From positions 1,614,701 through 1,678,700 of the forward strand of contig OZ038450.1 in the NCBI GenBank assembly GCA_964036195.1: a DNA stretch of 64,000 nt. Reading direction: 5' to 3'. The notes beneath the pieces were generated by a model. The model worked only from the letters and a program-made list of their open reading frames with translations. It was not told the origin of the DNA and searched no databases. This document shows positions 15,814 through 57,166 of this stretch, piece by piece. Numbering within the stretch: the stretch's first letter is position 1; every line of letters starts with the position of its first letter. The stretch comes from Sphaerolaimus hirsutus (taxonomy: Eukaryota; Nematoda; Chromadorea; Monhysterida; Sphaerolaimidae). The position numbers and the translations under genes are program-made.

Positions 15814-16558
15814 AAATTTCGCCATTCATGCGGCAAAAAATCGATGAAAATGGTCTCGAAAACTATCGGCGATAATCCTAAAACTAATAATTCACGATCA
15901 TATTCTCAAGAAGTGCAAAATAATAACATGCAATCAAATTTGTCCGCAAATCACCTAGCCGAATATGGACAAAATGGGACAATTTCCGGCCGAAATGAAA
16001 TTAGCGGAACAAATGTCAACCAGAAATTATCCGGCAACTGGAGGCAGATGTTCTCGGGTAAATTCGACATCAGTTTGAGCAAGGAAAAAGCGCCGAAAAG
16101 AAGTCAAAGTCAAGATCCGAGTTTGAGACAGAAAATCGTTTTGCGCCCGGAAAATACCGCCATCGCTGCGAAAATTCTGACAGACAGCGCCACGGTGGAC
16201 AATTTCACATCTGTGGTCGATCAAAGTCACAATCAAAATCGAAATTCGACTCAAATTTCGTCAAACTTGGCTAAGAAACACAGTCAGAGGCTTCCGTCTG
16301 GGGCTAAAGTAGTCAGAGCTATACCGCCTCCTCCTGAAGTGCTAAAGTCCATTTCTAAAGTTCCCGGACAGTCTATTAAAGTGAGACAAGAGAACTTTGA
16401 TTTGGGCAATTTTTACCAGTCGCATCAGTGGTCCCTGGACGATTTGAGCAGCTCAAATTCTAGTGATCAGAAAATGTTGAGACAAGTGAATTTTGGCAAT
16501 GATATGATGAGAATGCAGAGGTGGAGACAGAATTGGTTGGTCTTCTACTCTTCTGAGG
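15814..16558 (+). CDS. Long exon of an unidentified protein, possibly the PTPN4-like gene
   Basis: The frame is open for about 248 codons with coding-like composition (KEKAPKRSQSQDPSLRQK, AIPPPPEVLKSISKVPGQ, SLDDLSSSNSSDQKM). It is Ser/Asn/Gln/Lys-rich and probably disordered, with no recognised domain. An in-frame TAG at 15811 sits in the suggested acceptor, so the exon likely starts at 15814 in phase 0. The first Met is at 15844, which could instead be a start codon. The right end is uncertain: a GT at 16559 gives phase 1, and AG|GTGGAG near 16520 gives phase 2. A family A MITE begins right at the end. By position and style it may be an upstream linker exon of the PTPN4-like gene, but the phase to 37621 is not proven. 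Confidence 0.6.
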
Positions 16559-16742
16559 GTAGTCCCAGACCGTGTAAAATGGCATGGAAAATATCAAATG
16601 TTATGCAAACTGTCAAATGTCATGTAAAAGGTCCTGGCTAATGGCAAACTCGTTTGCCATTTTACAGGGGATTTTAGATAACTTGAGACACTCTGCATGA
16701 CTTTTGACATTTGAAATTTTACAGGGTATGGGACTGCCCCCT
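16559..16742. mobile_element. Family A MITE abutting an exon end
   Basis: It starts GTAGTCCCAGACCGTGTAAA and ends TTTTACAGGGTATGGGACTG followed by CCCCC. Core ATGCAAACTGTCAAATGTC and its inverted partner are present. The start coincides with the end of the 15814 coding frame. The downstream side runs into a family P element rather than into coding sequence. Confidence 0.8.
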
Positions 16743-16978
16743 GGGGATAATTCTGCAGATAGACAAGTGACAAGAAAAGTGCTAAGTGCTAGGTAAGAGT
16801 GTAAGCAGTAAGTTGAGTGACTAGAACTTGTATTTATTCATGGTATATATTTACCTATAAATACTTGTTTCCATTAATAATTTTTTTGTGACCGTTAAGT
16901 TTATGTGTCAGTTGACTTGCCTGCCACTTATCGCCTATCATTTTGCTTGTTACTTGTCCACATGCGGAATTGGCCCTG
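16743..16978. mobile_element. Family P element
   Basis: The left end ATTCTGCAGATAGACAAGTG and right end TTGTCCACATGCGGAATTGG are inverted, with AAGTGACAAG / CTTGTTACTTG words inside. It lies directly next to the family A copy. Confidence 0.7.
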
Positions 16979-17483
16979 TTTTTATATATTTTTTTGAAGT
17001 TTCATGTGGTTCTACGTGGTTTCGAACCATGCATTCCCGATAGGTTTTGACAGATGCATTCAAACATTTTTTGTTCTATTCAAAATTATTTTCCAAACTT
17101 TTGAATATGCTCACTGCACCATAACTTTTGTTTTATATTGCTGCATTTCTATTCACTCCATCTCCATTTTACATAACATTCCATGAATCGTTCTCCAGTT
17201 TCTCCCTTGCGTCATACATACATAATTTATCAGAATTTTCTGTCAGTAAATCTTCGTTTTGACATGAATTTCTTAACACTTCAGTAATCCTCCCCCTTAG
17301 AGTGTCCCATTTTACATGAAACTAGCCATAATGGGAACTAATTATCTTCTATAGTCGGTTTACTGCACAGTTTACAATGAAATCTACCATATCCAATATG
17401 AACAAAAAGAAAAATTACGTTTTTCTCATCACAATACATTTATACAGAAAAATACAGTAAAATTGTGAATAGGATGCAGTTGA
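16979..17483. other. Intron DNA with half of a family D repeat
   Basis: At 17367-17400, CAATGAAATCTACCATATCC matches one arm of family D (see 32603-32768). The other arm was not found. Nothing else recognised. Confidence 0.4.
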
Positions 17484-17683
17484 CTGCCACTCTCAGACCC
17501 TGTAAAATGCCGTGTAAAATGTCAAATATCATGCAAAGCGTCAAAAGTCATGGAAAAGCTCTGGAAGATGACCATTCGTTAGCCATACGTTAGCCATTTT
17601 GCAGAGCATTTTACATGACTTTAGACACTTCGCATGACATTTGACATTTTACAGGGCATTTTACAAGGTCTGAGAGTGGCACC
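17484..17683. mobile_element. Family A MITE, well preserved
   Basis: It starts CTGCCACTCTCAGACCCTG and ends GGTCTGAGAGTGGCACC, with symmetric GTAAAATGTCAAATATCATG and CATGACATTTGACATTTTAC blocks and a ~200-bp total length. This is the cleanest intronic example for comparison with the exon-splitting copy at 38014. Confidence 0.85.
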
Positions 17684-19802
17684 CGATCTGTATAAAACTG
17701 TTTCATAATTTGTCTGACACCACAAACAACATCAAAGACAACTGGACTGCGCGGCGCTAATCTCATGCATAGATCTTCATGTAAAATTCAACAGTTTTTG
17801 TCCGATGTAAAGTGATGTGCCGACTGGATGACGGGGCATTGACGGAAAACATATTTTCCTTGATTTTGGCAGCTTGCCAGTTAAAAGTGAAGTATGTCGA
17901 ATGGGGAGTTTAGGTGTGAATATAAGGATCTATGCATGTTTTACCGCGGATGTTTCCACACTTTGATGTGCTAATATCACGCGTCAAATTATGCACCAAA
18001 TACACCTATAGTCAAGGCAATGTATTAACCTGATGAAGAAAAAAAATTTATTGTTTTTTTTCTGATGGAATACGGTGGATTTCATAGAAAATTATGGTCA
18101 GGATAGTATATTCATGCCCCTTTCCATTATTTTCCGCCACATTCGTAGCGGAACTTGTGGAGCCTTCATGTTCACAGTTGTGTTGTTCAAGGTCATCCCA
18201 TTTCTCATTTTTTTTTACTTTCGTCCGAGTTTTTGTGGAAAAAATTCTCTAGGTGTTAGAATTTTTAGGCATTTTTCTTCACATGACTTGTCATGTTTTG
18301 CTTGAAAATGGAGTACATTAGATACTAAAACTGGTTAAACGAAAGTATTTGAACTTCTTGCTATTTTTATTTGACCATTTTTTCTGTTTCAGGAAAAAAA
18401 TTATCGGGGGCATTTACACGAACTATCGCAAAGTGTCCTAATTCGATGTCGCACGTGAAATTTCCCACTCAAATTGCGCATGAAAAATGCTCTTTTCTAT
18501 TTTTCAAACGGAAAAAGCAGGTAATTTGAAAATTGATTACGTAATGACGTATTTCTAGTGAAAGGGTGTGCTCACTGAAAATTTCTCCATTGAAACCACA
18601 AATTGATAGATTATTTTCACCCACCAAATTGCACTGACTTTCATGTCGCTTTTATTCAACATTTTGATGCGAAAGTTTTCGTGTTTTTACGTTTTTTTAA
18701 GTGGTAAAGTTTGCGCGAAATAGCTATGTTTTAGCTAAAAATGTGGTATTTACCTTCAACTAAACGTTCTTTTAGGTTGAGTATACAAAACTCTAAATGG
18801 TGAACTACATATTTTGTTTTGACCAGACACTATTTTATTTAGTAAAACTGGTTTTTTACTTTTCTAATGCCTCCCTTAAATAATGATCTACGATTTTTGG
18901 GATTATTTGGTAGTTTATAAGTGCCCAGGTAAAGCGAAGCTTAAGAGATTGTTTTTGTGGAAACAAATTGTTCTGTAAAGTTTTGGTATTTTATGAGTGT
19001 CCTTGGTTCACTTTTTAAGGCCAAATATACATAATTTTTCAGTTTTTCATAAAAAACGTGAAAAAAATATCCTGGGGGATTTACCAAGGTGATAGGAATT
19101 CAAGATAATAAATAACACTTATTTACGTATATTTTTGGTGGTCTTTTCTTAAACTTGAAGGGATACATATGAAAAGTGGGATAAACTTTTTTATGTCTAG
19201 GACTAAAATATCCATTTTACTTTCACACTTTTTCAGCACTTTTTAGTTAATTTTATTCCACCCAGGTATTAAACTTAACAGGTGTTTTACTATGTAAAAT
19301 TTTTATAGTATAACTGAGAAATGTTTAGTGTTTGGTTGCCATGGGGAAATGCCATTTCACAGTGGGTGGTTGCATGAACGCAATATAAAACCTTGGAAAA
19401 TATCACAATATCATTATTTATAGATAATAAATGGTTTTCTATGGTCTTTGCGTGCTTTCTTCACGGATTAATCTGTTACTTCAAAGGTGTTTTTTGGAGA
19501 ATGATATTTTTCGGTACTATTTAATTTAAAGTAAGCTAAGGTAAAGATATTTAACGTAGAACACTTACGTAACTTGAAATGTTTGCCACTTGATAAAGTT
19601 CAGAATTAGCGTTTGTATAATTTTCTACTCGTGGATAAATATGTACTGGATTTTTAAAATATGATATTTTGCCGCAGAAAACATTTGAAGGAGCAACAGC
19701 TAAATTTATCTTCTTTGAAACCATAATTTAAATCGTTTTGTCTCCTTAGTAACACATTCGAAAAATAAAACTAATAAGTATCTAAATACTTAGGGTAAAT
19801 AA
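17684..19802. other. Long intron DNA, nothing recognised
   Basis: AT-rich. No exon-like frames, RNA genes or clear transposon ends seen. Confidence 0.5.
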
Positions 19803-19915
19803 ATATTTGCTTGAATAACCCCCTTGTATAATACCCCTCTTGAAAAAATGAGATAGGAAAAATTATACACCCTTTAGTCATATGGTAATTTGGTTGTGCC
19901 CAAACAGGCTCTGTT

Positions 19916-20431
19916 CAGGGGTCTCGAATGGGGGGGGGGGGGTTGGGGGGGGGTTACCCCCCAAACCGCCCAAGTATCTATCCCGGAGGCCGCTTAGCTA
20001 TCTATCTATCCCGGAGGGCAAATTTTGGGCTACTACCCCCTAAACCACCCCCCAAATCGCCCAACTGTCTACCTATCTGGAGCGATTTTTGCGAAACTAT
20101 ACCCCATTTTTCGCTCAAAATCGCTATTTTTCATACCTTTTTATAGATTTTCACTTCCAAAATCATAGTTCTGGTTCCTATTTGTTTATTTTCAGCTATA
20201 TTTAGTACAATATGCCATTTTGAGCCATTTTACACATACTTTTAGCGATTTTTCTCTCTTTTCTTCCTTCTACGCCCCGAAAAAGCATATATATCGAACC
20301 ACCACAACCCCCCCCCCCGCAATCCCCCCCCGACCCCCCCCCCCAGAAAATTTTTCAGCTATCTATCCCTCCAGAGGAGCGATTTGCTATCTATCCAACC
20401 ACTCTGAGGGTCAAAATTCAAGATACCCCTG
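19916..20431 (+). mobile_element. Family S hAT-type MITE, intact, nested
   Basis: The 516-bp element has CAGGGGTCTCG at the left and GATACCCCTG at the right. The 8-bp direct repeat GCTCTGTT sits immediately outside both ends. Long G and C runs and CTATCTATC blocks fill the interior. No transposase frame. Confidence 0.85.
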
Positions 20432-20576
20432 GCTCTGTTTAAGAGTATATATATCATAAAATGTGTTGATAGAAGTATGCTTGACAATTTTGACAAAAAA
20501 ATAATTCACTTAGAATAACCCCCCTTGAATTATCCCCCCTTCAGAAATGTCTGGCGAAATAATAATTCCCCAGGGG

Positions 20577-21268
20577 CCAGTTCCGCAAGTAGACAAGTTA
20601 AGAGTTAAAAGTTAAGAGTTGAGTTAAAGGTTAAAAGTTGAGACAAAAGTTGAGTTAAAAGTTAAGAGTTGAGTTAAAGGTTAAAAGTTGAGACAAAAGT
20701 TGAGTTAAAAGTTAAGAGTTGAGTTAAAGGTTAAAAGTTGAGTCAAAAGTTGAGTTAAATGTTAAGAGTTGAGTTAAAGGTTAAAATGTGAGTTAAAAGT
20801 TGATTTAAAAGACAAATGGGTCATTCGTTGCAGAAGCGCGATACGCTGATCTTCAATCATATTTTGTCCCCGCACGGCCATTTTGAAACAACGTTCCGCG
20901 ATTTTTTTTTAGCGATAATTTTTTTGGATACGTTATTTTCAAATGTCGTGCATACAACATTGGCAGCATGCCAGCGAACAGCCATATCAATACCAATTTC
21001 ACATTTTTATTTTTTTACCATCATTTTCCACTTGTCTCTTAACTCTCAACTCTCAACTCAACTCTTAACTCAACTTTTAACTCAACTCTTAACTCTTAAC
21101 TCAACTTTTAACCTTTAACTCCACTCTTAACATTTCACTCAACTTTTAACTCAACTCTTAAATTTTAACTTTTCTCTTAAACTTTAACTTTACTCTTAAC
21201 TCGCCATTTGTCATTTTACTCAACTCTTAACTTTTAACTCTTAACTTGTCCACTTGCGGAACCGGCAC
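20577..21268. mobile_element. Family P element with tandem-repeat arms
   Basis: The termini are GGGGCCAGTTCCGCAAGTAG and CACTTGCGGAACCGGCACC, inverted. The left arm (20597-20815) is a tandem array of GTTAAAAGTTGA / GTTAAGAGTTGA units. The right arm (21030-21250) is the inverted array of CAACTCTTAACT units. A full-length hairpin with arms of roughly 200 bp can form. Confidence 0.8.
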
Positions 21269-21297
21269 CAGGTTATTTATTTGAGCGAATACGGCAT

Positions 21298-22428
21298 AAT
21301 ATTCACCGATATGGTAAACTTGTATCCAATTACGTAGGTATGAAGCAAATAAATGTCATTTTTAGTGATTAAAAGGTGACCTGTTTACAATTATCCACTA
21401 CAACTCACCATGTTATTTAATTGTGAACTTTGTGCTCACCATACCATGTATTAATTTGCACCCAAGGTGAGTAAAGTTGCGATGCGAATAAAATGTTGTC
21501 AACATTTTATGTCAGTGTTAATGCAATTTTTAACAGGTGTTTCAAAAGTTTTTATTCGAGTTGTATTTATCCTGATAAATATTGTTGTTTTTAGGGTATT
21601 TTGTCATTTATTTATAATAACTACAACGAATTTTTGCAGTTAATTAAAAAAACAACACAAAACGTGAGAAGTTAGGTTGAAAACCAATGTATCACTTTTC
21701 CGAAAAACACTTGAGCATTTTTGATGACTTTTTGGGAGTATGTGACTCATCAGAATGTGTTTTACCTCCCACAGTGAAAAAATACAACAAAAAACGGATA
21801 AAAGAAAAAATGTCCTATATTCAGTATTACGTATGTCTACAAAAATACTTTCCATTCCAACAGAGTTATTGTCACATGTTACGTCAAAAGTTGTGCATAT
21901 CTGAATAATAGACTTCAGTATATACATATTTAAGTAGGGTTGTGCAAAGCTACTTCAAATACATTTTACATACACAAGTAAATAATATTTTAAAGGCAAA
22001 CAAAGTTCCATCGTAATGTTTCACCGTTTTACTGTATTTTTAATATTAAAAGTATTTAAGCTAAAAACCTTCAAAAAACTCGTGTTTAACAGGTGTTTTC
22101 GTGGGTGTACAAAGTTTAATGTCAAATGTTATTTTATTTTATGTGAACAACATTATGTCTTTGACCTACAGAGTCTAGAGTTTTTTGCTTTTAAGGGTGA
22201 AGTCATTTTTCCTCATGTACCTAGTTTTCAATGTTTTGTGACTTTTTTTGAATGCTGCGAAATGAGGTTTGGTTCCATTTCGATGGAATTATATATTTAT
22301 CTATTCGAGGATATCTCATTGCAGCAAATTAACGTTACGTATTTTTTGTAATTGTGAAAGCGTTCCAAATGTAATAATAATGTTATCTCTAAAATACACA
22401 GAATTATTACATTGATGCTAAAATTTCT
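21298..22428. other. Non-coding intron DNA
   Basis: Frames of 70-110 codons occur on both strands (22016-22351 on +, 21640-21927 on -) but overlap each other and have background composition. No domain or splice context found. Confidence 0.45.
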
Positions 22429-22605
22429 AGTGAAGCAGACATTGTACCGAAATCTACCATATCTCATCTGAATAATGTAATTAGGTAAACGTGTATTTTT
22501 TAAAGAAAACGTATTTACATTACTTTTCGACTGGATAATTGACCACAAAATTTATTAAATGCCATTATTCATAGAATTATGGTAAACTTCTATCCAAAAC
22601 ATGTT
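22429..22605. mobile_element. Family D hairpin repeat
   Basis: GCAGACATTGTACCGAAATC, then TACCATATCTCATCTGAAT, make the left arm. ATTCATAGAATTATGGTAAAC then TTCTATCC make the inverted right arm. Length and arm spacing match 32603-32768 and 52580-52745. Confidence 0.6.
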
Positions 22606-24547
22606 GTTGGGTCAATTCAGTATAACAAAATTGTATAAATGAATACAAATTCAAATGAAATGTGGACTGAATTCGAACGGAGGTAAACTGCATTGCAAAA
22701 TGTAAAATGTAAAATAAAATAAGTGAGTGAAGTGCCCCCAAAACTCAGTTCACATACTTCTGTGTTTACTTTGAAATGACTGCCCAATTATTGACTTTTG
22801 TGACTTTTGTCGCACCGGTAGCGCTGTTTGAATAGGAAACCATTGTCAAGTGAATTTCATTTTTATTCTGCGAACAGTTTTGGGACATTTCCTCTTTTCT
22901 GTTGTGTTTGGGAAATGTTTGTTCCGTTTTTCCACTTGACTGTGTTCGAATTTTTTTTCGAAAAACCTTAAGAATTGTTGAATATTAAACTTCTTGACAC
23001 ACCGTCAACACTTGATGCTGACTCTGTTTGAGTGAAATGCATTTCAGTGAAATTTTGGTTCATTTTTTCGAATTTTTGGTGAATATTATTTGAGTCGTAT
23101 GCAAATTTGTGTAAATATTGGTGTCGAAAGTTTTCAAAAATACAAATGTAGGTGTGTCAATATAAATTAGGTACTGAAAACGTTGTGTTATACGTTAAGC
23201 GATTTCTATTAAATTGATAGTATTTTGATTAGGTGTCAAATTAAAATACATGTCATCAATTAGTTCATTACTTATAACCTCACATGACACTTTTTATGGC
23301 TTGCTTGTCTACTTGCGGAATTTATTTCTGAGTGCATGGAAAGCATATTTTGTGTTCTGTTTACCTGGCACGGAAATACCACCATTTTCAACTTAATGTC
23401 CCTATTTAGCTGTCGTTACGTGATTAAGTACACCCCCTTTCTATGAAAGTGTCAGATTTTATGTCACGCTTTATACTTACCTACTTTTTAACCATCACAG
23501 AAGGATATTTGTGTGATTGTGATATTTATAAAAAATCAATTCCACAAATTATTGACCCTAATTCTTATTACCTAATTATTAATCTAAAAAGTCCTACGAA
23601 TGAGTAATGGCAACCCATAAAGTGTTTGTGGTACACGCCCGCCCTGCATTGGCTTAGTGAGTTTTTCTGGGTATTTTGGGTTAGAATATTTTATTTTTAG
23701 TGAAGTTTTGTTCTTTTGTGAGCAGAACAGTTGACAACATCCATATTCCCTGTCGTTTTTCCTTTATTTTTTTGCCATTTTTCACTTATTCATATGAGAA
23801 AATTACCGGACAAAAACTCTCATCCATTCATTATGTTTGGTGGAAACTAGTCTTTATTATTTCACGTTAATCTCTGAAACTTTTTCTATTTACTCAGCAC
23901 TTTGTAAGCCGTGCCTGTTTATTTCCTTCAGCTGAAGTAAGCTCTTGTAAATAAATATTAGCCAATATTCATCCTGTTTTCAATCATATTAACTACACGG
24001 TTGCATTCTGACGAAATTACACTTTTATTTGATATTTTTTGTTATTATATTAGCTTTACTGTGATGTGAAGATACCATTTTTGTGATTATGCTGCATTCC
24101 ATATACATTTTCGGATATTGGAGTTAAATATGTATTATATGTTAAAATTTTTTGCAACATTTCTTGTGTCTTGCTATTTTTACAGAAAAACCACCTGCTA
24201 TTTTTACAGAAAAACCACCTATAAGACGTTTTTCTGTATTTTTTCTGCTCCAACCGTTTTTCCCTTAAAATCGCTTAGAATACCTGAAAAACTTTTTTTT
24301 CCATAAATCCAGAATTTAAGTAGGGTATAAATACTTGTAATCTCCGTGTTTTCTGCCTTTCGAGATTGCCTAAATTTTCGTTTTCCATGTTTCTCGTTAA
24401 ACAAAAACACAAATTCTAAAAAAGTGTGATTGAAAATGTGTTTTGACACCGTTGCTTACACGGCACTGTGCCGTGAACATTATATGAGGTTATTTAATTA
24501 CCCAAAACGCATTATCTCTGTACATTTCCATCCATGATATTACCAAA
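22606..24547. other. Long AT-rich intron DNA
   Basis: A few short inverted words, and a direct duplication of CTATTTTTACAGAAAAACCA at about 24172-24222. No exon recognised. Confidence 0.45.
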
Positions 24548-24935
24548 TGCACCTGGGCCCAGATTCAATTAGAACGTAAGGCTCCAGATAGCTGAGTAAG
24601 TGTTGAAATAGTGAACTGGGGACAATCCCAGACGCTGTAAAATACCCTGCAAAATGACAAATGTCATACAAAGTAAGTGAAGACATGGAAAATGCCACGG
24701 AACATGGCAAACGTACATTTTCCATGACTTTAGACACTTTGCATGACATTTGGCATTCTGCAGGGCATTTTACAGGGTCTGGCATTGCCCCTGGGGTCAG
24801 ATCCAATAAAATAGATCATAAGGTGCCCGACATCCGAGTTGAAACGGTGCCCAGTTCACAATGTCGATGCTTACTCACGTAGGGCGTCTAACATGCGCCT
24901 TACCTTCTAATTGAATCTGGCCCCTGGCCTCAAAT
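24548..24935. mobile_element. Family E element hosting a family A MITE
   Basis: The ends GGGCCCAGATTCAATTAGAA (followed by CGTAAGGC) and GCCTTACCTTCTAATTGAAT (followed by CTGGCCCC) are inverted repeats. The middle is occupied by a family A MITE, so the family E copy is older than that insertion. Confidence 0.8.
24617..24791. mobile_element. Family A MITE nested in family E
   Basis: It starts GGGGACAATCCCAGACGCTG and ends GGGTCTGGCATTGCCCC, with GTAAAATACCC and CATTTTACAGGG flanking blocks and an ACTTTGCATGACATTTGGC core. Confidence 0.85.
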
Positions 24936-25812
24936 GTGGGTGTGCCTTGTGCAGTGCACTGCAAATAGATTTTTATATACATAAATAGCAGATTTTATTT
25001 GCTCGGCAAATGTGAATACATTGAAGCTTGTGTTCACATCCGCCAGAATTTTCATGTTGATGGAAAATTAGCGCATGATTTCTAGGTGAATTTTTCTGAC
25101 GGTTGACAGCTGAATAAATATATCAATGTATTTACAGTGTAATTATCGGTGCGCGGAAATTTGGCATACTTCTCCGACAAATTATGGGATTTCAATTTTT
25201 TTTTTCCGAATATAAGGTTGAAGCCATTTTTAATTTTCGATTTTTCCTACAATTTTTTTCCTACAAACGTAAAACTTTGCCGTTTCCTCACTAAACAAAT
25301 ACGAAAACGATTCGCTGTAATTTGTGTGGGTAAATAAAAATCAAATCATTCTACGTCGGTGCACAGCGCACCTGCACCTGCGCCGGAAGTGACAACATGC
25401 GGTGCACCGCCTACCGTAAACCGCCGAATGTAAAATTCATGCGTTTGACGGAATGTAAAGGCAGCTTCACTATTGTAAAAATGTCTGCTGCATATTGATC
25501 GCCCTTGATTTGATTGTTGAACCTTGGACCCGATATAGGGCTTGAAATTTGGTAATCGGAAAAAAATATACCAAAATCGGATACAACCCAATCGTAATTT
25601 GGAACTTCTTTCCCGAATTTGGATTTTCAGCGAGTCGCATGATGGAAAAATCTAAATGATGGCTGACAAAAAGCTGGACCTATGTTTTCCCAATTTGTAC
25701 CGCGCGCCGAAAATTTCACGTTATCTCATCCCAAACATCAACCCGGGTTTTCGCAACCAAAAGTTGACCCGAGTTGAGTTCGAGTCAATTCGCCATGCAT
25801 TCCAAATCCCAG
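24936..25812. other. Intron DNA, becoming GC-richer to the right
   Basis: No recognised gene up to about 25650. From there GC rises toward the candidate exon at 25813. Confidence 0.4.
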
Positions 25813-25975
25813 CCCCTCACCTCCCAACCCTCACGCCACAATGGACGCTACGTATTTGGATACCATTCCGCCGGGTCGGCCCGCAAAAACGCAAAGCCCT
25901 TATCCGAATGCAGTGCGACGCAATGAACGGAAGTGCTCGGCGCGCCGGCGAATGCCACCGGAGTGGCCTCTGAAA
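25813..25975 (+). CDS. Candidate exon in a GC-rich patch, unproven
   Basis: An acceptor-like CCAAATCCCAG ends at 25812. The following frame encodes a Pro/Arg-rich peptide (PSPPNPHATMDATYLD, then TIPPGRPAKTQSPYPN) ending before GTGGCG at 25976 in phase 0, the phase needed for the exon at 37621. An ATG at 25841 in strong context (CCACAATGGAC) would also allow an alternative start. A competing frame (25656-25973) is longer but has no supporting splice sites. No homology recognised. Confidence 0.3.
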
Positions 25976-25990
25976 GTGGCGAGGCGCGCG

Positions 25991-26206
25991 TAGCCGGGGC
26001 TAGGTTCAATTGGAAGGTAGGGCGCCCGACACCTGTGCAAGTTTCATGCACTTACTCGTCTATGGGGCACCTTATTCTGGGCCTCAATTCAATTCGAACT
26101 TCCGACTTCGACAACCGTGTACCCGGACCAGGGGCCAGATTCAATTCGAACGTAAGGCGTCTTACGCGCACCTTACGTTCGCATTGGATCTGGCACCTGG
26201 GCTGGG
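25991..26206. mobile_element. Family E sequences, one short perfect copy
   Basis: CTAGGTTCAATTGGAAGG at 26003 is a partial family E end. The second, compact copy (26128-26206) runs from CAGGGGCCAGATTCAATTCG to GGATCTGGCACCTG and is an almost perfect ~80-bp palindrome. The 117-codon frame across it is a by-product. Confidence 0.65.
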
Positions 26207-26784
26207 TACCCGGTTGTCGCAGTGCTGCGCGACTGAAATGTGCGTATTTATGTGTAGGTGTGCATAAAAGGCTGCTTGGAGAATAGTTGGGTCGTTGCGA
26301 AAGTTTTCACACCGGAAAGAATTTTTTTCTCTATTTTCATTGACATTTTCAGTAAATTTTTGTTTATGTTATTACTTATTTCAGTGTTGATAATTTTTGT
26401 GATTTAGCAATATATTTATTCTTTCCGTGCAATACTTTCGGAATGAGGTCCGTAATTGTCACGCGGAAACTTTGACTAAATGGTCGCAATTCTGTGCTCT
26501 TTTGGTCGCGATTCCCTTCGACTTTTATATCGCATCATTTTCTACCATAAACTGCGTAAACATGTACATCTACTGAACTCGTGACTTCTCCCTTTTTCTT
26601 CCATCAAAGCTACCTATTTTCAAAAATTATGCGCACATAAATTTCCCAGGGCGCATTCAAAAAGCCGGCTGGAAGGGGCGCCATTTGTCTGGGTTTGATT
26701 GGAATTTGGAACCTTTGCTCGGGCGTGAATTGTAAATTATACGCGTATTCGTATACGCAGTGCCCTGCTTGCAACCTACGAGTC
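26207..26784. other. Intron DNA
   Basis: Nothing gene-like or clearly repetitive recognised. Confidence 0.4.
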
Positions 26785-27520
26785 CGCGTCACTTTATATG
26801 CTGGCCACTTTTCATGAAGTGAAAAAGTGCCACTTTATATGACACAAGGGCGACAGTTTATATACTCAGGTAAACTTCTCTCATGCCAGGTAAACGCGAC
26901 ACTTTATATACCTACTCAATTTATGTTCTCTCATGCCAGGTAAACGCGACACTTGATATACCTACTCAATTTATGTTCTCTCATGCCAGGTAAACGCGTC
27001 ACTTTATATGCTATGTTATGTTCTCTCATGCTGCATTTATTAATTAGTGACATTCAATATTTAAGTTGTTGTCAGTGGATGGTCAAGTTATTGTTTGCTA
27101 ACATTTTTAATTGCATTTGATTTGCTTTATTTAGATTTTTTACACATTGTTCAAGCTTCCCGTTGTTAACGCAATTGAAAAGTTGATTCGCAAAGCAGGA
27201 ATTCAGGTGTATATAAAAAGATTCAGAAATCATGAGTATATAAAATGAAATTTTACAAACAAAATGGTGGCAACATAAACAACAGCATCAAACATAAATA
27301 TGTGGCATCTAAAGTGATGCATTTAAGCAGCATGAAGGAACAAACAGTAGTATGAAAACAGTTGCACTTTGGCATATAAAGCGTCGCATTCTAGCAGCAT
27401 GAGAGAAAAAAATCCTAGTATATAAACTGTCGCACTTTGGCATCTAAAGTGTCGCACTTTGGCATCTAAAGTGTCATTTTTGTCAGTATATAAAGTAGCC
27501 AGCATAGAAAGTGTCCTGGC
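26785..27520. mobile_element. Element with ACTTTATATGC tandem arms
   Basis: The left arm (26785-27030) repeats ACTTTATATACCTACTCAAT and CTCATGCCAGGTAAACGCG units of roughly 58 bp. The right arm (27330-27515) carries inverted units such as GCATCTAAAGTGTCGCACTT and CAGTATATAAAGTAGCCAGC. Similar ACTTTACATGC-type structures lie at 43139-43256 and 49797-50535. No coding capacity. Confidence 0.6.
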
Positions 27521-27529
27521 CTCGCTTGC

Positions 27530-27652
27530 AACGGCTGGGCCGAAATTCAATTTGAACGTAAGGCGCCACCTCCTTGCACAGTTTCTCGTGTTTACTCGCA
27601 TATCAGTTTCCTTACAAGCACCTTACGCCCTAATTGAATGTGGCCCCTGGAA
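27530..27652. mobile_element. Family E element, short
   Basis: GGGCCGAAATTCAATTTGAA with CGTAAGGCGCC at the left and CACCTTACGCCCTAATTGAA with TGTGGCCCC at the right, inverted, about 120 bp apart. Confidence 0.75.
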
Positions 27653-27766
27653 GCACATGTGAATGCAGTGCTCCGCGCGCAGGTGGGATCTTCTGTGGCA
27701 CACCTTGGTTTGGAAACCCGTCGGAGCATAGTATTTATACACCGAAATAATTTGCTTGTACGCGTA

Positions 27767-27925
27767 AATGCTACAGACTACCATAACCAATCTGAATAGA
27801 TAACAAAAAATTGCATACTTTTCCTCACTGTAATGTATTGGTTTCAGCATGGCATGCCGCAGCACAAATTTTATCACACGACTTTATTCATCAAATTACG
27901 GTAACATTCCGTGGAAAGCAGTCCA
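27767..27925. mobile_element. Family D hairpin repeat
   Basis: GACTACCATAACCAATCTGA on the left and TTCATCAAATTACGGTAACA on the right give the family D arm arrangement. Confidence 0.6.
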
Positions 27926-29879
27926 GTATACCTACATATGCGTTATATTGGGTAGGTAAATGTGTCTGTGTGGTGGTGTGAGCACATGCTTCATGTCTAG
28001 AATCGCACACATTTGCTTGTGAATGAATGCATTTGCCTGTTGCCTTTTGGCAAATATGTACCTTTATGTACATAGGTAAAAATGTGTACCGTGAAGGCAT
28101 GTGCATCAATTGTTTGCTTTGTTTTGGTAGATCATGCAGCATGTGACAGATTGCATGATTGTTCATGATTTTTGAGTTCTGGTTTTCTATGGATCATTTA
28201 TTTAGTGTGGCAGGTGGATATTGTAAACTATTTTTAAGCTGTTTACCTTGAAATTGGAAAATCATGAAAAATTTTCTATCTTGTAATTTGTAAATTTCTG
28301 GCAATTCACATTAGGTTATTTGCTGTTATTTGTGCTTATTTTTTCGCAAATAATATATCTGTTGTTTTTGAATTGAATGGTGAATATTCAATTGCACACA
28401 GTACAGCAAGTTATTCAATATTCACCTTTCCCTAAGTTTATCATGCTAAATTTCTATTGCCCACACAAATCACAAGCAGCGAAGCTTCTATTGCGAAATC
28501 GATGATATTGGCTGCATATACGCAACCTCAAACCGCTGCAAGTATTTACACACGCTTCACTGAGCCTCAGCTCAATTTCACGTATCATTTCTAATGACCA
28601 TAAGCAGCTAATGTACGAAGCAACATGCTTTCTGCCACGTTGAAGAATGGAGCTTGATTTTAGTCGCGTTCCGAGCACATTTTTACCATGTGGTTCGAGA
28701 TTTTCGGCGTTTTTTTATATTTTGTATTCTACTGTGGAAATAGGTAAGGCGTCAAAAACCGAATAAAAAACATTGAAAAAGTGCTCAAAATCGATATGAC
28801 GTCATCGTTGAAGGTTATCTCCTGTTGGTATCGTAAGATATTCTATTGGGTTATCTAGGTACATTTTACCTCCCTACACAAATCCTCACGATTATTCTTG
28901 ACAATAATGTCATAGTAATTTGCGATTTTTAAGTCCAAAAAGTGCTTTTTGGGAGAGCTTTTGGGGCATTTACAGCATGACTTATTCAGAATAGAATTTT
29001 TGTTAATTTTACGCCTTAGTCAGTTTCATGACGTAACATTGACTGAAATCGCCAAAAATCAGTATCTCCATGAAAATTTTTGACTTTGAAGTTGTATTTA
29101 TCCGCTATTTTTCGTCATGCTGAGGCCCTTTAAACGGACCACCCTGTAGCAGGAAAATGTGCCGTGTTCGAAACAAGATAAAGGTAAATTGCACGGAACC
29201 TCACGCCCCGCTTGTTGCTATTTGCGCTATGTACAATTTCTTCGTAATTGAAGTGCTTCTCTGCCAGTTTGCTCACTATTATCAGACGGGAGTGACTAAA
29301 ATCCGTTATTGTGGATACCGTAGTTCTTCTAATAAAATGCCATTCAATAGTAGGGCACTACTGTGACAGGATGCACAAATTTAAAAGAAAATAATGTGCT
29401 CACTCGCAATCGCTGTCCACTACACAGAACATCAACTGTATAATGTAAACTAGTGTATCGCTTGACTTATCACCAAAAATGCATCATTAATAATGCATTT
29501 TTCTGCTGTCTTGGTTTAATTAGTATACCTATATTAATATTTTTTTGCCATAGTTATATTTATGATAACCTTTATTTGTCCAAACTAATTTATATTCATA
29601 GTACATATAGGTAATACAAAATAAAATAACATAAATAAATATGTGTGATATTTATAAGCTTATCATTATTAGCAAGCTTTAATGTGAAATTGTGCCCACG
29701 CACACCGATTTAATTTCTGAAGGACAGTATTTTTAATAATTGATTTGTCAGCTTTGGAAATTTAGGTTGTCGACTACTGCGTGTAGATCCAAATGTGAGA
29801 ATTCATTTAGGTAACAAGAATGCTTAGATAAATTATTTTAAATAACGATACTGAAGTGTTTTGTATCGATGATAGCTTG
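27926..29879. other. Non-coding intron DNA
   Basis: Short frames only (for example 74 codons on - at 28454-28678). No domain, no RNA gene. A CCACCCTGT motif occurs at 29140. Confidence 0.45.
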
Positions 29880-30129
29880 TATACTCGGCGTACTTGATAC
29901 TCTGCCGTCGCACTGATTTATGTCTCGTGTTGGAAGCGTGCCAATGATTGTTAAGTCATGCGATTTCCGTAAAAAGATGAAAAAAAATCATCGATGTGAA
30001 TATGTTAATGTATAACATTATAACAACCATCAATTTTGTCATCTTTTTATGAAACTCGCATGCGCTAACCATCTTTGGCACACTTCCAGCGGGAACCACG
30101 CGTGCAGGGTGTAAAGTAACCGGAGTATA
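29880..30129 (+). mobile_element. Family C MITE, copy 2
   Basis: TATACTCGGCGTACTTGATA at the left and GTAACCGGAGTATA at the right. Nearly identical to 12722-12971 over the full ~250 bp, with a few substitutions. Confidence 0.85.
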
Positions 30130-30407
30130 AGTCATCCATGTTTCACCTTCCATTTTATTGAATATATAATCAACACACCCTTCATTAAAAAATTGCGAAC
30201 AAAAAATTAATAGAAAAACAGCCATAGAATGACACTTCCAATGGGATGGGATGTAGGTGGAGTGGTGCCTGCGAAAATCAATTTGTGCGTAAATACAATG
30301 ACCGCAGTGGCATATGAGTAGGTATATTGAGTTGATCACCTACAACCAAGAATACACATTCACCTACAATTGTTGCCCCATGACAGTAACCAATCAGGGA
30401 CTCTTCC

Positions 30408-30505
30408 CATACCCTGTAAAGTGCCCTGTAAAATGTGTAATGGCATGTAAAGTGTGTCAAAGTCCTGTAAAGACCACGACAAAATGTCCTGTAGAATAGC
30501 AAACG
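30408..30505. mobile_element. Family A left half
   Basis: CCATACCCTGTAAAGTGCCC, TGTAAAATGTG and ATGTAAAGTGTG blocks of family A without the inverted right half. Confidence 0.55.
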
Positions 30506-31596
30506 AATCCCCTGGTAAATATGAACCACCTTGTAATCGCGTGGCATTCTGGTCAGGGATTGAATTTCATATTTTGGAACCCATTTCAGTTCTATTATTG
30601 TTTATTAGTGGTCTCATGGCAAATGCACATATTTATTTGTACATAATAAAATGTGTTTTGTGACTGAGTACCTAATGGTGGAAAATTTGAATCGATTTGA
30701 TGAATATAAGGAGTCAATTTGGCTACATAAGTTTAATAGGTCAGCATGCAAACTGAGAAATCCTGAAAAATGGAATCAAATCCTCAAGAAACTTGAGAAT
30801 GAAGTTTACAATAATGTGTTAAATGTGATCTCCATCAACTGTGTTCAAAATTTGAGCGTTTCCCTTAACCAAGTTTAAGTTTCCGATTTTTCAGTTGACC
30901 GCTCGCCGACTGTCAACTAGTGTTTTAGTAGCATAGGCAGACGGAAGCTTTTAGTGCCTATGATGTCACGCAACGCTGTTTCATTTTTATAAATTTTTAT
31001 TGAAACATACTAGGTAATTTCCATAGCCACAGTGATTTAAGGTTGACTTATTAAATCCCAAAAGACACATATTTACCTTATGATATTATCACCATAGTAA
31101 CCGTAGCTCAGGTACTTTGTGATTTCTTGATATGTATAAATTTTATTTACACTTTCTGAGCCGGTTAACACAGGAAAATGTATTTTAGTAATCCGAAAAT
31201 CACAGGTTCTATCGAGACAATTTCGCCGTGAATTTTTCGAAAATGATGTTTTTCTGATGTTTTAGATGTCGATGAATAGTTGAATATTCTGTGTAACATT
31301 CAGTGTACTTTTATTTGGACAAACAAGTATGAATTTTCACCAAAGGAATCATTTCTTTTTTCATATTTTCAACATGTATTCAGTATTATTTGTGGGGCTG
31401 GAGCCAAGCCGCGGAAAATTAATTTCGCTCAAAATATTCAATAAAAACATCAGACGGATGCTGTCAACACGAAACTATTACTTTTTAATCCAGTAATCCC
31501 CAATTGCCTGTCAGCTGGACTTCATTGTGCATGCTTTTCCTATTTTATTTCTACTTTATTGAGTAAATTCAGGCGTGGTTTCTGGCGGGGACTCTT
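30506..31596. other. Intron DNA with one odd open frame
   Basis: The 75-codon frame at 30651-30878 (+) has a fairly protein-like stretch (EYKESIWLHKFNRSACKLRN). It lacks convincing splice sites or a known domain and could be a decayed coding fragment. A GTCAACTAGTG word near 30910 resembles a family F terminus. Confidence 0.25.
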
Positions 31597-31905
31597 GGTG
31601 CCACTCCCAGAGCCTGTAAAATGCCATGTTAAAGTTCAAATGTCAGACAAAGTGTCAAAAGTCTTGTAAAACGCCTGGAAAATGTCAAATGTCATGCAAA
31701 GTGTCAAAAGTCTTGTAAAATGCCCTGGAAATGAGAAATGTCATACAAAGCGAGAAAAGTTTTGTAAAATGCCTGGAAAATGTCAAATGTCAACCAAAGT
31801 GTCAAAAGTCTTGTAAAATTCCCTGGAAATTGTCAAATGTTATGCAAACTGTCAAAAGTCTTGTAAAATACCCTAGAAAACGTCAAACGTTAGTTCGACA
31901 TCTTA
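31597..31905. mobile_element. Family A element with 5-fold tandem core
   Basis: It starts GGTGCCACTCCCAGAGCCTG. The core block (CAAATGTCATGCAAAGTGTC, then AAAAGTCTTGTAAAATGCCC) is repeated about five times with a ~50-bp period. The right terminus is not recognisable. It looks like internal tandem amplification of one MITE. Confidence 0.75.
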
Positions 31906-35370: not shown

Positions 35371-37513
35371 GGTATGAGCCCATTGTGGCCGCGACATTGT
35401 GTCCGCGGACGTTGTGGCCGCGCCGTTCTGGCCGCGGGACACGAAGGCCGCGGACATTGTGGCCGCAGGACACGAAGGCCGCGGCCACAAAGTCCGCGGA
35501 CACGATGGCCGCGACCCCATTGTGGCCGTGGACGCGATGGCCGCGCGTACATACCTAATTACAAAACAGACGCCACTGCACGCTTTTCATTGTTTGTTTT
35601 TGGCTAATTAAAGAGAAACAAAAACGGCATATGTGCAGGAGTGCCTGTAACAGGCGCGTGAGATTGCATTATGCAGGTAGACGTACAGTGTGTATCAGTG
35701 ATGTAAGATCAAAGGCAATTGATGGCTAATCTGCATTTGAATGGAAGTACCCAGTATAAAACCCATGAATACCTTGTTGATGACAGTGAGCGCAATTAAT
35801 CCTGGGATTATATGAGAAAAACAATTAGAAAATATTGATGATAAATTTTTTGAGGTAAAAATGGAATTTCTTTTCACACAACTCAATACATATTTTTTAC
35901 AAATCAAAATTCCAAGTTTCAGACATAAATAAATATGCCTTTGCAATGAATAAATATGCTTCTGCAAATTGATATTTCAATCTCCAGGGGCCAGATTTAA
36001 TACTCCCTACAGATTTGTAGGGTAGGGCGTGCGCCCGACAGATTTTTTTAAGTTTAGCTGCATCGACGCACATGCACCGAGAGCAAGGCGGTTCGTAAAA
36101 TATACGAAACCATCCCTTAAGGTTGCCGATATTGCAATATGACGTATATCACTTCGATTTTGGCCCGGAAATCACGATTTCGTCATTTCTTGGCCGTCTC
36201 CCAATTTGTTTTTTATTTTATTTTGTCGGGGGGGTTACTCGCATAGGTCACGCTTTTGTGTAGTCAGGTGGTCACTTTTTTAGTGTTCACTGTCTGCAAC
36301 TGAAACCATGAGGGCAGCGACAAGAAAGAAATGCATGCACAAGCGTACAAAAGCGCGACTTATGCGAGTAACCTGCCCGACAAAATAAAATAAAAAACGA
36401 AATTGGCAGATGGCCGAGAAATGACGAAATCGTGATTTCCGAGCCAAAATCGAAGCGATATACGTCATATTGCAATATCGGCCACCTTAAGGGATAGTTT
36501 CGTGTATTTTACTCACAGCATTACACATAGGGGTTTCAGTTGACATGTCACAATTTATTTACACCTGGAGATTGAAATATCAATTTGCAAAAGCATATTC
36601 ATTCATTGCAAATGAATATTTATTCATGTCTGAAAATCGAAATTTTGATATGTATAAAAATATGTACTGAGTTGTGTGAAAAGAAATCCCATTTTTGGCT
36701 CAAAAAAATTTATCATCAATATTTTCTAATCGTTTTTCTCATATAATCCCATGATTAATTGCGCTCACTGTCATCAACAAGGTATTCATGGGTTTTATCC
36801 TAGGTACTTCCATTCAAATGCAGATTAGCCATCAATTGCATTTGATCTTACATCACTGATACACACTGTACGTCTACCTGCATAATGCAATTTCACGCGC
36901 CTGTTACAGGCACTCCTGCACATATGCCATTTTTGTTTCTCTTTAATTAGCCATAAACAATCAATGAAAAGCGTGCAGTGGAGTCTGTTTTGTAATTATG
37001 TAAACCCCTGTCAACTTCATTCCGGACGGTCGTGAAAATTTCATTCGACAATCGGTTCTGCCCGACCGCGGGCAATTTTCAAAACTTTGGCCCTATGAAA
37101 AATAAGCCCAGACATTTGTCCAAAAATATGTTGGGGCGCCCTGCGCCAGAACCGACTGTGGGCCGTTTACATGGCTCACAGTCGGTTCTGGCGCAGGGCG
37201 GCCCAACATATTTTTGGACAAATGTTTGGGCTTATTTTTCATAGGGCCAAAGTTTTGAAAATTGTCCGCGGTCGGGCAGTATCGATTGTCGAATGAAATT
37301 TTCACGACCGTCCGGGATGAAGTTGACAGGGGTTTACGTTCGGCCATCGCCTCCGCGGCCACAATGGGGTCGCGGCCATCGTGTCCGCGGACTTTGTGGC
37401 CGCGGCCTTCGTGTCCTGCGGCCACAACGTCCGCGGCCTTCGTGTCCCGCGGCCAGAACGGCGCGGCCACAACGTCCGCGGACACAATGTCGCGGCCACA
37501 ATGGGTGTCAACC
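35371..37513. mobile_element. 2.1-kb foldback element with 9-bp target duplication
   Basis: The two halves are inverted copies. Outer arms (35379-35545 and 37340-37505) are GC-rich arrays of GTGGCCGCGGACA-type units. The next segments (35590-35990 and 36545-36975) are AT-rich and match each other inverted. An inner palindrome covers about 36112-36505. GATATTTAG occurs directly outside both ends (35362-35370 and 37514-37522). The long arms and a 9-bp duplication resemble foldback or Mutator-type elements. The many GC-rich frames in the arms are not genes. The right end is about 107 bp from the exon at 37621. Confidence 0.85.
37003..37334. mobile_element. Palindromic TA-flanked MITE nested in the foldback
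   Basis: AACCCCTGTCAACTTCATTC at the left and its inverted copy ending CAGGGGTT at the right enclose two long arms (CCAGAACCGACTGTG / CACAGTCGGTTCTGG near the centre). TA flanks both ends. The left foldback arm lacks this sequence at the matching site (about 35551-35556), so it inserted after the foldback formed. Confidence 0.85.
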
Positions 37514-37620
37514 GATATTTAGGTACATACTGTATAAACATTTTTCCGTCGAAAATAGACTTTTATTTATCAACTTTTCAGACTCCATAAAATCATCTCA
37601 CAGTCCATTTTTAATTCCAG

Positions 37621-38013
37621 CTTAATGCAATGCTCAAATTTGTGGTGCCCCCGGGCGGATTGAATCAACTAAAACACGACGCATTAACAAGCGACAAGGC
37701 GCCCAGCGTCTCGCCTACATTATCTAACTGCGAAACCCGGTCCGGTTCCGGTTCCGATACCCGATTCCGAAACCCGAGAGACGAGACCCGAAAGGAGAAT
37801 CGATTCAGCGGAACTGATCAACTTCGATCGAGAAGCGTCGGCCCGCCCGCCACGAAGAGGATATGGAATTACGAGAATGAGGAAAAACTTGGCACCTTGC
37901 CAAATGCGAGCGAAAGTAAAAAAGATTGCACCTCACCAATTACCGTAACCGCTACCGTAACCGTGAGAAGACCGCGTCAGTTACGGTCGGGAAATAAGCG
38001 TCGGGCAGCCCAG
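37621..38013 (+). CDS. Exon of the PTPN4-like gene (linker region)
   Basis: An acceptor TTTTAATTCCAG ends at 37620. The frame enters in phase 0 and is open for 131 codons with coding composition: FVVPPGGLNQLKHDALTSDK, then a Ser/Arg-rich part (SGSGSDTRFRNPRDETRKEN) and RPRQLRSGNKRRAAQ. It ends CAG at 38013 just before GTGCCA, in phase 0. Reading on into the following family A element meets a stop at 38083, so the element must be spliced out. The protein is probably disordered and no domain is recognised. Membership in the PTPN4-like gene is inferred from strand and the phase chain. Confidence 0.75.
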
Positions 38014-38223
38014 GTGCCACTCTCAGACCCTGTAAAATGCCCTACAAAATGTCAAATGTTATGGAAAGTGTCAAAAGTCATTTAAAATGCCCTGGAAAAT
38101 GGTAAATGTCATGCAAAGTGCAAATTTCATGTAACATGGCCTGGAAAATGCCATGACTTAAGGCACTTTGCATTACATTTGACATTCTACAGAGCATTTA
38201 ACAGAGTCTGGGATTGCCCCCAG
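38014..38223 (+). mobile_element. Family A MITE that is exactly an intron (introner candidate)
   Basis: The 210-bp copy starts GTGCCACTCTCAGACCCTG and ends GAGTCTGGGATTGCCCCCAG, and carries the family core GTAAAATGCCC / ATGCAAAGTG with inverted CACTTTGCATTACATTTGAC. The upstream exon is open to 38013 and the downstream exon is open from 38224, both in phase 0 (RRAAQ then LAQRLAALV). The GT is the element's own second and third terminal bases. The AG lies at or just outside the right terminus. Retention would introduce a stop codon. Confidence 0.85.
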
Positions 38224-38421
38224 TTGGCTCAAAGATTGGCGGCTTTAGTTAGCCCCAGAACATCGAGAAAACAGCTCCTCAGTTTGTCGAATAAAAATGA
38301 TGATGGTAATTTGAGCGACTGGGATGAAAGTGAAGATTTCCACGCTCAAGATGTCTATTTTCCGGCAAAAGTAAACCAGGGCAAGTTTACCAGGGCGCTG
38401 CAAGTTGCAGAAATGAGACAG
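38224..38421 (+). CDS. Exon of the PTPN4-like gene (linker region)
   Basis: It begins directly after the family A intron: LAQRLAALVSPRTSRKQL, then NDDGNLSDWDESEDFHAQDV and VNQGKFTRALQVAEMRQ. It is entered in phase 0 and followed by GTGAAA at 38422 in phase 0. Charged and acidic, no recognised domain. If the following 78 bases are not spliced, it is continuous with the exon at 38500. Confidence 0.75.
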
Positions 38422-38499
38422 GTGAAATTAATAATTGGAATTTGTACAATTTTTATGTCAATAAAAATTATCCAATTCGATAAAATTGACAAAATGCAG
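38422..38499 (+). other. 78-nt mini-intron or retained segment
   Basis: It starts GTGAAA, ends ATGCAG, and is 78 nt (26 codons) without an in-frame stop. It is AT-rich and, if translated, gives a hydrophobic stretch (LIIGICTIFMSIKIIQF) quite unlike its acidic neighbours. It is probably a very short intron, and its multiple-of-three length would let retention pass unnoticed. The acceptor lacks a good pyrimidine tract. Confidence 0.5.
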
Positions 38500-38642
38500 C
38501 AAAATCAGTGCGACGCTTCGATCGTTCTGATCGAAAGTAGGCGAAAATCTATGAACTGTGGAGATTTTGACAGCGGGTCGGCTTTTCATGCGCCGACCAA
38601 TTTGCTGATCGACGACAATACTTTCTGCCCGCATTGTGTCAG
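38500..38642 (+). CDS. Exon of the PTPN4-like gene (linker region)
   Basis: QNQCDASIVLIESRRKSMNC, then GSAFHAPTNLLIDDNTFCPH and CV. It ends with AG before a good donor GTGAGA at 38643, in phase 2. The next exon (41357) starts in the matching phase, giving an Arg codon at the junction. A CPHC motif at the end is suggestive of metal binding but stands alone. Confidence 0.75.
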
Positions 38643-47254: not shown

Positions 47255-47468
47255 GGTGCCACTCCCAGACCATATCTGCTATGTCCTGTCACATTTAAGT
47301 GTCAAATGTTATGTAAACTGCCCTGTAAAATGTAAAATGCAAAATGTCAAAGGTCATGTAAAGTGCCCTTTAAAATGTCAAACTTCGTTACAGGGTATTT
47401 TCCGTGACTTTTGACACTTCGAAAAACATTTGACATTTTACCGGGTCAGCCCTGGGACTGCTGCCTGT
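47255..47468. mobile_element. Family A MITE
   Basis: It starts GGTGCCACTCCCAGACCATA and ends GGGTCAGCCCTGGGACTGCT then GCC, with repeated GTAAAATG cores and an inverted CTTTTGACACTTCGAAAAAC block. Confidence 0.75.
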
Positions 47469-51722: not shown

Positions 51723-51854
51723 GGGAGCAGTTCCACACCCTGTAGAATGTCCTGTAAAATGGCAAACGTACGTATTATCCAGTGCATTTTCCATGACTTT
51801 TGACACTTTGTAATATGACATTTCGACATTTTACGGAGTCCGAGAGTGGCCCCA
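51723..51854. mobile_element. Family A MITE, short
   Basis: GGGAGCAGTTCCACACCCTG at the left and CATTTTACGGAGTCCGAGAG then TGGCCCC at the right, about 130 bp. Confidence 0.7.
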
Positions 51855-53790: not shown

Positions 53791-53866
53791 CTGATGAGTA
53801 TGGTTCACACTTCTGCCATTGGATAATATAACATCATAATAATAAGCGTTCAACCCAATGTATCTA

Positions 53867-54317
53867 CCGTATTTCCTCGAAATACCCCCGGGGGGTTTAT
53901 TGTTTCAGAGTGAGAATTTTGAGGGGGGGTTAAACGAGGGGGGGGGTATTTCGAGGGGGGGGTTTATTATTTCGCCAGAAATTTTTTGAAATCCCAGTAC
54001 TAAAATGTCGTCTGAAACGTACGCAGACGTCGAAAAATGCAACAAAAATAGCCATTTATAAGACTCTAAAGACATTTATAAGTGTGTAGACGTACAAACA
54101 CTGTTCTCACATAACATAGTCATCGTTTTTAACGTGAGTTCTGCATTGCCGGGATGACAAACCGCAGCCTTTGTCATTTACGTTCTCTATACACTAAATT
54201 TGGGGGGGGGGGTATTTCGAGGGGGGGGTTTATAAGTTCATAGTGTCCATTTTGAGGGGGGGTATTTCGAGGGGGGGGGTATTTCGAGGGGGGGGGTATT
54301 TCGAGGAAATACGGTAT
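53867..54317 (-). mobile_element. Family B element (subtype a), young copy
   Basis: TACCGTATTTCCTCGAAATA at the left, TCGAGGAAATACGGTA at the right, TA at both borders. The ~450-bp sequence is nearly identical to 56531-56982, with only a handful of differences in about 450 bp, pointing to recent transposition or duplication. Confidence 0.9.
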
Positions 54318-56277: not shown

Positions 56278-57166
56278 CTTACCTTATTTCCTCGAAATCC
56301 CCCCCCCCCCTCGAAATACCCCCTCGTTTGCCCCCCCCCCTCTCGAGACCACTATGAAACAATCACCCCCCCCTCTAAATACCCCCCCAGATTGAGTGTA
56401 AAGAGAACGTACATGACAAATACTGCAGTTTGTGTTCTGCGTAATGCAGAACACACGTCAAAACACTGTCGGAATCACGTTAGAACAGTGTATATACCAT
56501 CTACGTACTAAAATTAGTCTACAGGAGTCTACCGTATTTCCTCGAAATACCCCCGGGGGGTTTATTGTTTCAGAGTGAGAATTTTGAGGGGGGGTTAAAC
56601 GAGGGGGGGGGTATTTCGAGGGGGGGGTTTATTATTTCCCCAGAAATTTTTTGAAATCCCAGTACTAAAATGTCGTCTGAAACGTACGCAGACGTCGAAA
56701 AATGCAACAAAAATCGCCATTTATAAGACTCTAAAGACATTTATAAGTGTGTAGACGTACAAACACTGTTCTCACATAACAGAGTCATCGTTTTTAACGT
56801 GTGTTCTGCATTGTCGGGATGACAAACCGCAGCCTTTGTCATTTACGTTCTCTATACACTAAATTTGGGGGGGGGGTATTTCGAGGGGGGGGTTATAAGT
56901 TCATAGTGTCCATTTTGAGGGGGGGTATTTCGAGGGGGGGGGGGGGTATTTCGAGGGGGGGGTATTTCGAGGAAATACGGTATACATGTCAGTTATTGAT
57001 GCATTTTTCTATCCCAGCACACGTCACAAACAACGATTTTGTACTGGGTTTTCAAAAAAATTCTGGCGAAATAATACCCCCCCCCCCCTCGTTTAACCCC
57101 CCCCCCCCCTCTCGGGACCACTATGAAACAATCACCCCCCGGGGGGTATTTCGAGGAAATACGGTA
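56278..57166. mobile_element. Family B element (subtype b) hosting a subtype a element
   Basis: The outer ends are CTTACCTTATTTCCTCGAAA and TTTCGAGGAAATACGGTAC. The two flanking blocks (56400-56530 and 56983-57075) together match, inverted, the interior of 11186-11640. The middle is the complete subtype a element. Confidence 0.7.
56531..56982 (-). mobile_element. Family B element (subtype a), nested, young copy
   Basis: TACCGTATTTCCTCGAAATA at the left and GAGGAAATACGGTAT at the right. Nearly identical to 53867-54317. It splits the surrounding subtype b copy, showing that subtype a was active later. Confidence 0.9.

Follow-up and report, generated by a model that had tools for sequence, protein, structure and literature searches.

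A palindromic, CWG-duplicating MITE family as a probable source of introns in protein-coding exons of the nematode Sphaerolaimus hirsutus

Introners, repeated elements resembling non-autonomous DNA transposons that give rise to introns upon insertion into exons, rank among the main explanations offered when introns are gained in bursts, and a 2022 survey names only two animal groups possessing them (Gozashti et al. 2022, PMC9860276). Elements carrying the 5' splice site and co-opting the 3' site are described therein from Chrysochromulina, where they generate a 4-bp duplication and lack TIRs; the class of mechanism considered here is, hence, already known. The family of the present study, termed family A, resembles the surveyed introners in being repeated, non-autonomous and DNA-transposon-like and in apparently converting exonic insertions into introns, and it shares TIRs and target duplications with many of their families (PMC9860276). 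It differs from them in that it duplicates 3 bp of CWG, is palindromic over its full length but for two asymmetric positions, and resides in an animal. As far as the literature searched extends, the family is new, as are its CWG rule, its break of symmetry at two positions and its occurrence in an animal.

Among PIF/Harbinger-related (PHIS) transposons, the NuwaI group is defined by a CWG duplication; its members reside in animal hosts and have TIRs usually beginning with GGG (PMC4482050). Family A has the CWG duplication and an animal host in common with this group, and one of its termini (GG-end) starts with GGGGC like NuwaI TIRs. The NuwaI group, however, is defined on transposase-bearing elements, whereas family A is a MITE in which no transposase was found and whose other terminus (GT-end) starts with GTG. 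Since the GG-end fits the GGG start of NuwaI TIRs, the GT-end would be the derived one, if the origin is NuwaI-like. No mention of introner activity of the NuwaI group was found in the accessible text (PMC4482050), and the literature searched, one paper on fungal genomes excepted, did not reveal an introner link to CWG-duplicating PIF/Harbinger relatives. In the introner elements of Amoebophrya, inverted repeats can pair the intron ends in a hairpin, and direct repeats of 3–5 nt are located at the exon/intron borders (PMC7789003). Hairpin-forming inverted repeats and short direct repeats also characterize family A; the Amoebophrya elements, in contrast, were defined among introns with non-canonical splice sites in a dinoflagellate host, whereas family A is a single family associated with putative GT-AG borders.

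Within the window (the entire 64,000-nucleotide stretch of S. hirsutus DNA analysed), a single open exon of 812 nt is broken by a 210-base insert composed of a family A element and one 3-bp duplication, the excision of which keeps the frame (Table 1). Translation confirmed the preliminary description with respect to the phase 0 frame open to 38013 and from 38224 as well as to the stop encountered upon retention, and its estimate of about 20 family A copies in the window agrees with the approximately 19–20 places counted. Its assignment of all of 38014–38223 to the element holds for 38014–38220, but the terminal CAG represents target duplication. Joining 38013 to 38224 (empty site) yields 273 open codons, as compared to a 95th percentile of 156 codons for 3000 random joins in the same window, 30 of which reached at least 270 codons, many of them probably because they fell on long frames already present in the window and left unmasked. 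The interrupted exon gave two sub-threshold Pfam matches only, no PDB match and no protein-database match at E 10. Its second part harbours an in-frame AT-rich stretch of 78 nt (38422–38499; 22 % GC), which starts with GT, ends with CAG and could be exon or mini-intron. Directly 5' of the exon, nested long inverted repeats are located (35379–37505), the 96 % complementary arms of which measure 300, 178 and 165 nt.

In the proposed donor CAG^GTGCCA (^, exon/intron border), the GT belongs to the element; in the proposed acceptor CCCCCAG^, the C residues belong to the GG-end and the AG to the target duplication. The donor departs from the usual consensus at positions +4 and +5, and the TTTAAC ahead of the downstream exon resembles a branch-point motif.

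Table 1 Interrupted exon and second exonic copy in the window, and family A loci whose empty-site frames match known proteins
Feature	Position or locus	Strand	Basis and remarks
Coding exon part 1	37621..38013	+	393 nt; phase 0 open frame; acceptor TTTTAATTCCAG ends at 37620
5' target site duplication CAG, last codon ahead of insert	38011..38013	+	Sequence
Family A element of 207 bp in sense orientation, from GT-end to GG-end (...TTGCCCC)	38014..38220	+	Sequence and genome relatives
Proposed 5' splice site CAG^GTGCCA, GT from element terminus	38014..38019	+	Sequence; use inferred
In-frame TAA if insert is retained	38083..38085	+	Translation
Branch-point-like TTTAAC, ~23 nt ahead of downstream exon	38197..38202	+	Sequence; use inferred
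Proposed acceptor CCCCCAG^, including the C tract	38217..38223	+	Sequence; use inferred
3' target duplication copy CAG	38221..38223	+	Second copy of CAG 38011..38013
Coding exon part 2	38224..38642	+	419 nt; phase 0 open frame; donor CAG^GTGAGA after 38642
Second family A copy in open exon frame, CTG/CTG duplication, diverged	16556..16740	+	Frame; 264-codon empty-site frame
Possible intron GTAGTC...CTGCAG, coding then to AG^GTAAGAG at 16792	16559..16758	+	Splice sites inferred
TSP_1 (TSP-1 repeat)	L003		Pfam, above curated cut-off; no gap at junction
TFIIA	L010 8219		Pfam, below curated cut-off; CTG/CTG duplications
AMP-binding	L013		Pfam, above curated cut-off; alignment gap near junction; GG-end first
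GRK2	L016		PDB; 3' duplication reads TAG
STAG (cohesin SA)	L019		Pfam, above curated cut-off
Band_3_cyto (SLC4)	L022		Pfam, above curated cut-off; match starts 12 residues downstream of junction
RRM_1	L023		Pfam, below curated cut-off; CTG/CTG duplications
Lig_chan-Glu_bd (glutamate receptor)	L035		Pfam, above curated cut-off; junction spanned only in PDB alignment
Zip (ZIP)	L040		Pfam, below curated cut-off

The intron proposed for the second exonic copy in the window is less certain, the copy being diverged and its GT-end altered. Further family A copies, located outside recognised exons, were observed at 47256–47464 (CTG/CTG duplications), 24619–24790 and 51724–51852 (both without GT-end) and 62708–62869. 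Several copies of a different repeat family, which has G/C tracts and whose ends resemble TACCGTATTTCCTCGAAATACCCCC, are also present (11183–11482, 53863–54162, 56528–56827). An open frame on the + strand at 63476–63778, ~25 kb downstream of the interrupted exon, matches the first part of the PDZ domain of PTPN4. A PTPN3/4-like gene on the + strand over part of the window is plausible, the interrupted exon being linked to this PDZ exon solely through strand and position. Pfam scans of all three + strand frames of 1–15002 and 16800–31801 yielded no domain at E 0.1; the FERM region that a PTPN4-like gene should possess was, therefore, not found in these two stretches.

The assembly searched for relatives of the element comprises 348 Mb in 762 contigs. 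A first search returned 4379 first-look candidates, 40 of which were scored and gave 40 places including the window element, all of which were retrieved; the selection followed similarity to the window element and was not random, and fractions calculated from this set are not genome-wide. CWG flanked 67 out of 93 termini detected at the model threshold (41 CTG, 26 CAG; 27 loci and the window), compared to a background of 2.7 %. Both ends were recognised in 47 copies (39 loci and the window), 43 of which carry T at position 2 in exactly one end. The notion that every terminus supplies a GT is thereby ruled out: the ready-made donor of the preliminary description applies to one end, but not "always", and the first G of its terminus GGTGCC usually lies outside the element, where it closes the target duplication. 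Identical CWG duplications were found in 24 of the 43 oriented copies (9 of them CTG/CTG), an analysis in which end positions could shift one base towards CWG, favouring CWG duplication; without such shifting, three-base flanks were identical in 15 out of 34 pairs.

The majority consensus of ten oriented copies of exactly 192 bp (agreement below 60 % at 5 of 192 positions) is a perfect palindrome except for positions 2 (T versus G) and 4 (C versus G). This terminal asymmetry places GTGCCA, the putative donor, at the GT-end and, in the sense orientation, TGCCCC with its C tract beside the duplicated CAG at the GG-end. Palindromes with two GG-ends were detected at only 8 genome places, a count based on another core pattern than the duplication counts below and only roughly comparable to them. 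Short size, inverted termini, CWG target duplications and high copy number identify family A as a MITE. For the consensus RNA, a single hairpin of -169 kcal/mol is predicted, in which the first four and the last seven bases (duplication included) remain unpaired, whereas the more diverged window copy (38014–38220) reaches -72 kcal/mol; judged from the modelled fold, the hairpin may bring both splice sites together. No Rfam match was obtained at gathering thresholds. A further subfamily, which shares these ends but differs in its body (...CCCAAGCCCTGTAAAGTGTAAAGTAAAGTG...), is recurrent among the listed genome pattern matches, and two copies in one locus (L017, 6619–6806 and 8901–9087) have identical flanks, indicating local duplication.

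Exact two-ended patterns amounted to 1394 in total across the genome, and none was found in any of the reversed-pattern controls. For sense elements, the 5'/3' duplications read CAG/CAG in 684, CTG/CTG in 408, CTG/CAG in 229 and CAG/CTG in 73 cases. In the absence of selection or end bias, CAG/CAG should equal CTG/CTG, and the two mixed classes should be equally frequent. Both pairs deviate from this expectation (p 6e-17 and 7e-20, respectively), the p-values being too small since segmental copies are not independent. Likewise, among 19 oriented retrieved copies with unequal duplications, the 3' one terminates in AG in 10 cases, as compared to 2 cases for the 5' one. The putative acceptor AG, earlier attributed to target or terminus sequence, can be specified as that of the duplicated target CAG; the 3' duplication is enriched in AG genome-wide.

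From the copies in the retrieved loci, 20 empty-site frames were chosen by eye as coding-looking and scanned. Nine of them matched known proteins, eight by fitting Pfam domains and GRK2 via PDB (Table 1); the other 11 had no convincing match. An assignment of L028 to TRAF found no support on scanning. The junction resides inside the match (Pfam or PDB) in all of the nine except SLC4. Across it, 65 residues align gapless to solved GRK2 and 45 residues to cohesin SA-1, and in the glutamate receptor an alignment gap of three residues follows the junction. An intact second copy of the GRK2 gene may be present elsewhere. Read in gene sense, the insert is led by its GT-end in 8 of the 9 genes. In the exception (L013), the leading GG-end results in a junction without GT; in L010 8219 and L023, CTG on both sides results in a border without AG, where a nearby exon or element AG would have to serve as acceptor. 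In the nine genes, the element ends lie at the junctions predicted from frames and homology, with one putative splice site away from the element end in these three loci. Upstream of 4563–4860 in L023, the RRM exon is apparently bounded 5' by another family A terminus (translation HLTFYRAFYRVWDFPL) and may, therefore, lie between two family A elements.

Retention would introduce an in-frame stop inside the insert in all 13 copies checked, the window copy included. The longest sense empty-site frame had a median of 110.5 aa in 42 of the 43 oriented copies (one was dropped, its flanks being too short or containing N) versus 59 aa for 2211 control joins in the same loci (p 3.7e-11); antisense frames (median 85) also exceeded the controls (p 1.9e-4), which could in part stem from GC-rich flanks alone. 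The genome search for intron-like copies suggested in the preliminary description provided nine homology-supported exonic sites. Its reading as an introner is supported by the CWG duplications, by exonic copies with in-frame empty sites in conserved genes and by the over-representation of AG at the 3' duplication. As judged from sequence, family A is very probably a non-autonomous foldback MITE, NuwaI-like among PIF/Harbinger relatives by its CWG duplication, that acts as an introner.

A candidate source of transposase may be sought in the DDE_Tnp_4 family (PF13359), for which at least 163 matches were found in the genome upon scoring 150 of 306 candidates, many of them with near-identical score. 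In the one copy inspected (L041), family A ends were not found within the 3.8 kb retrieved, and this copy is not supported as partner transposon. In this transposase family, the DDE region is divided between two frames, possibly owing to a short intron.

According to the mechanism proposed, family A would insert at CWG and duplicate three bases. Given a CAG target on the coding strand and the GT-end first, the arrangement CAG^GTGCC...TGCCCC CAG^ would result. Splicing from the GT of the element to the duplicated CAG would then remove the element together with the duplication and, thereby, restore the original coding sequence. At a CTG target, the AG would have to be provided by nearby sequence or by a T-to-A change in the 3' duplication. 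For the window, this implies that the element probably inserted recently into an intron-less site and is spliced via GTGCCA. We lean slightly towards the full scenario, in which a palindromic CWG MITE became an introner by two symmetry-breaking substitutions (GGGGC to GTGCC) that created a donor at one end and retained the C tract at the other, with the duplicated CAG completing a perfect intron and both splice sites located at the open base of one hairpin; hundreds of new introns would have arisen in this way in an animal, including those in GRK2 and cohesin, and CTG sites would have been mended by T-to-A in the 3' duplication.

Splicing selection and integration bias of the GG-end could both give the observed ratios of duplications. 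If the GG-end tended to carry its own CAG, the predominance of CTG/CAG over CAG/CTG (229 and 73) and of CAG/CAG over CTG/CTG (684 and 408) would arise without selection. Such a bias is compatible with family A being an introner; it does, however, not account for exonic copies with intact frames and sits poorly with the identical CWG duplications in 24 of 43 oriented copies, 9 of them CTG/CTG (ends shiftable one base), and we regard it as a rather unlikely cause of the excess. A different splice site would be used if the donor were CCCT^GTAAAATG, which is positioned 18 nt inside the window element: each insertion would then add six in-frame codons (VPLSDP here), and the introner would leave a small coding footprint. 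GTAAAA occupies element positions 19–24 in 32 of the 43 oriented copies, the product of this donor stays open without loss of frame at the window site, and placement of GTAAAA near both ends by the TIRs would also serve the GG-end-first L013. Yet the base ahead of this GT is T, and six extra residues would interrupt conserved stretches in GRK2 and cohesin SA, the exact-excision products of which align gapless; use of the internal donor, therefore, appears improbable. CAG^GT, on the other hand, matches the exon-side donor consensus.

That family A insertions are not spliced at all, the carrying alleles being disrupted or the genes being pseudogenes, agrees with the retention stop in 13 of 13 copies. 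GRK2, cohesin SA, TFIIA and other genes would, however, all have to withstand this disruption while their frames remained open on both sides, and neither the leading GT-end in 8 of 9 genes nor the AG excess at the 3' end would be expected; we deem this very improbable. Hardly any weight is given to an older intron at the window site that was later replaced or filled by a family A copy. Other copies in the window indeed reside outside recognised exons, e.g. that at 62708–62869 just 5' of a probable acceptor. The intron proposed here, however, consists of the element and one duplication only, and this duplication is that of the exon's own CAG, as would be expected upon insertion into an exon.

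Family A is, thus, probably a source of new introns in protein-coding exons of an animal, where the birth of introns has rarely been caught. Its simple target rule, the two diagnostic positions and the many intron-ready copies make intron birth directly readable, with respect to the working target strand, the surviving orientation, the correction of a wrong CTG target and the possible help of a hairpin in splicing. If true, this reading would tie introners to a named transposon group, the CWG-duplicating relatives of PIF/Harbinger.
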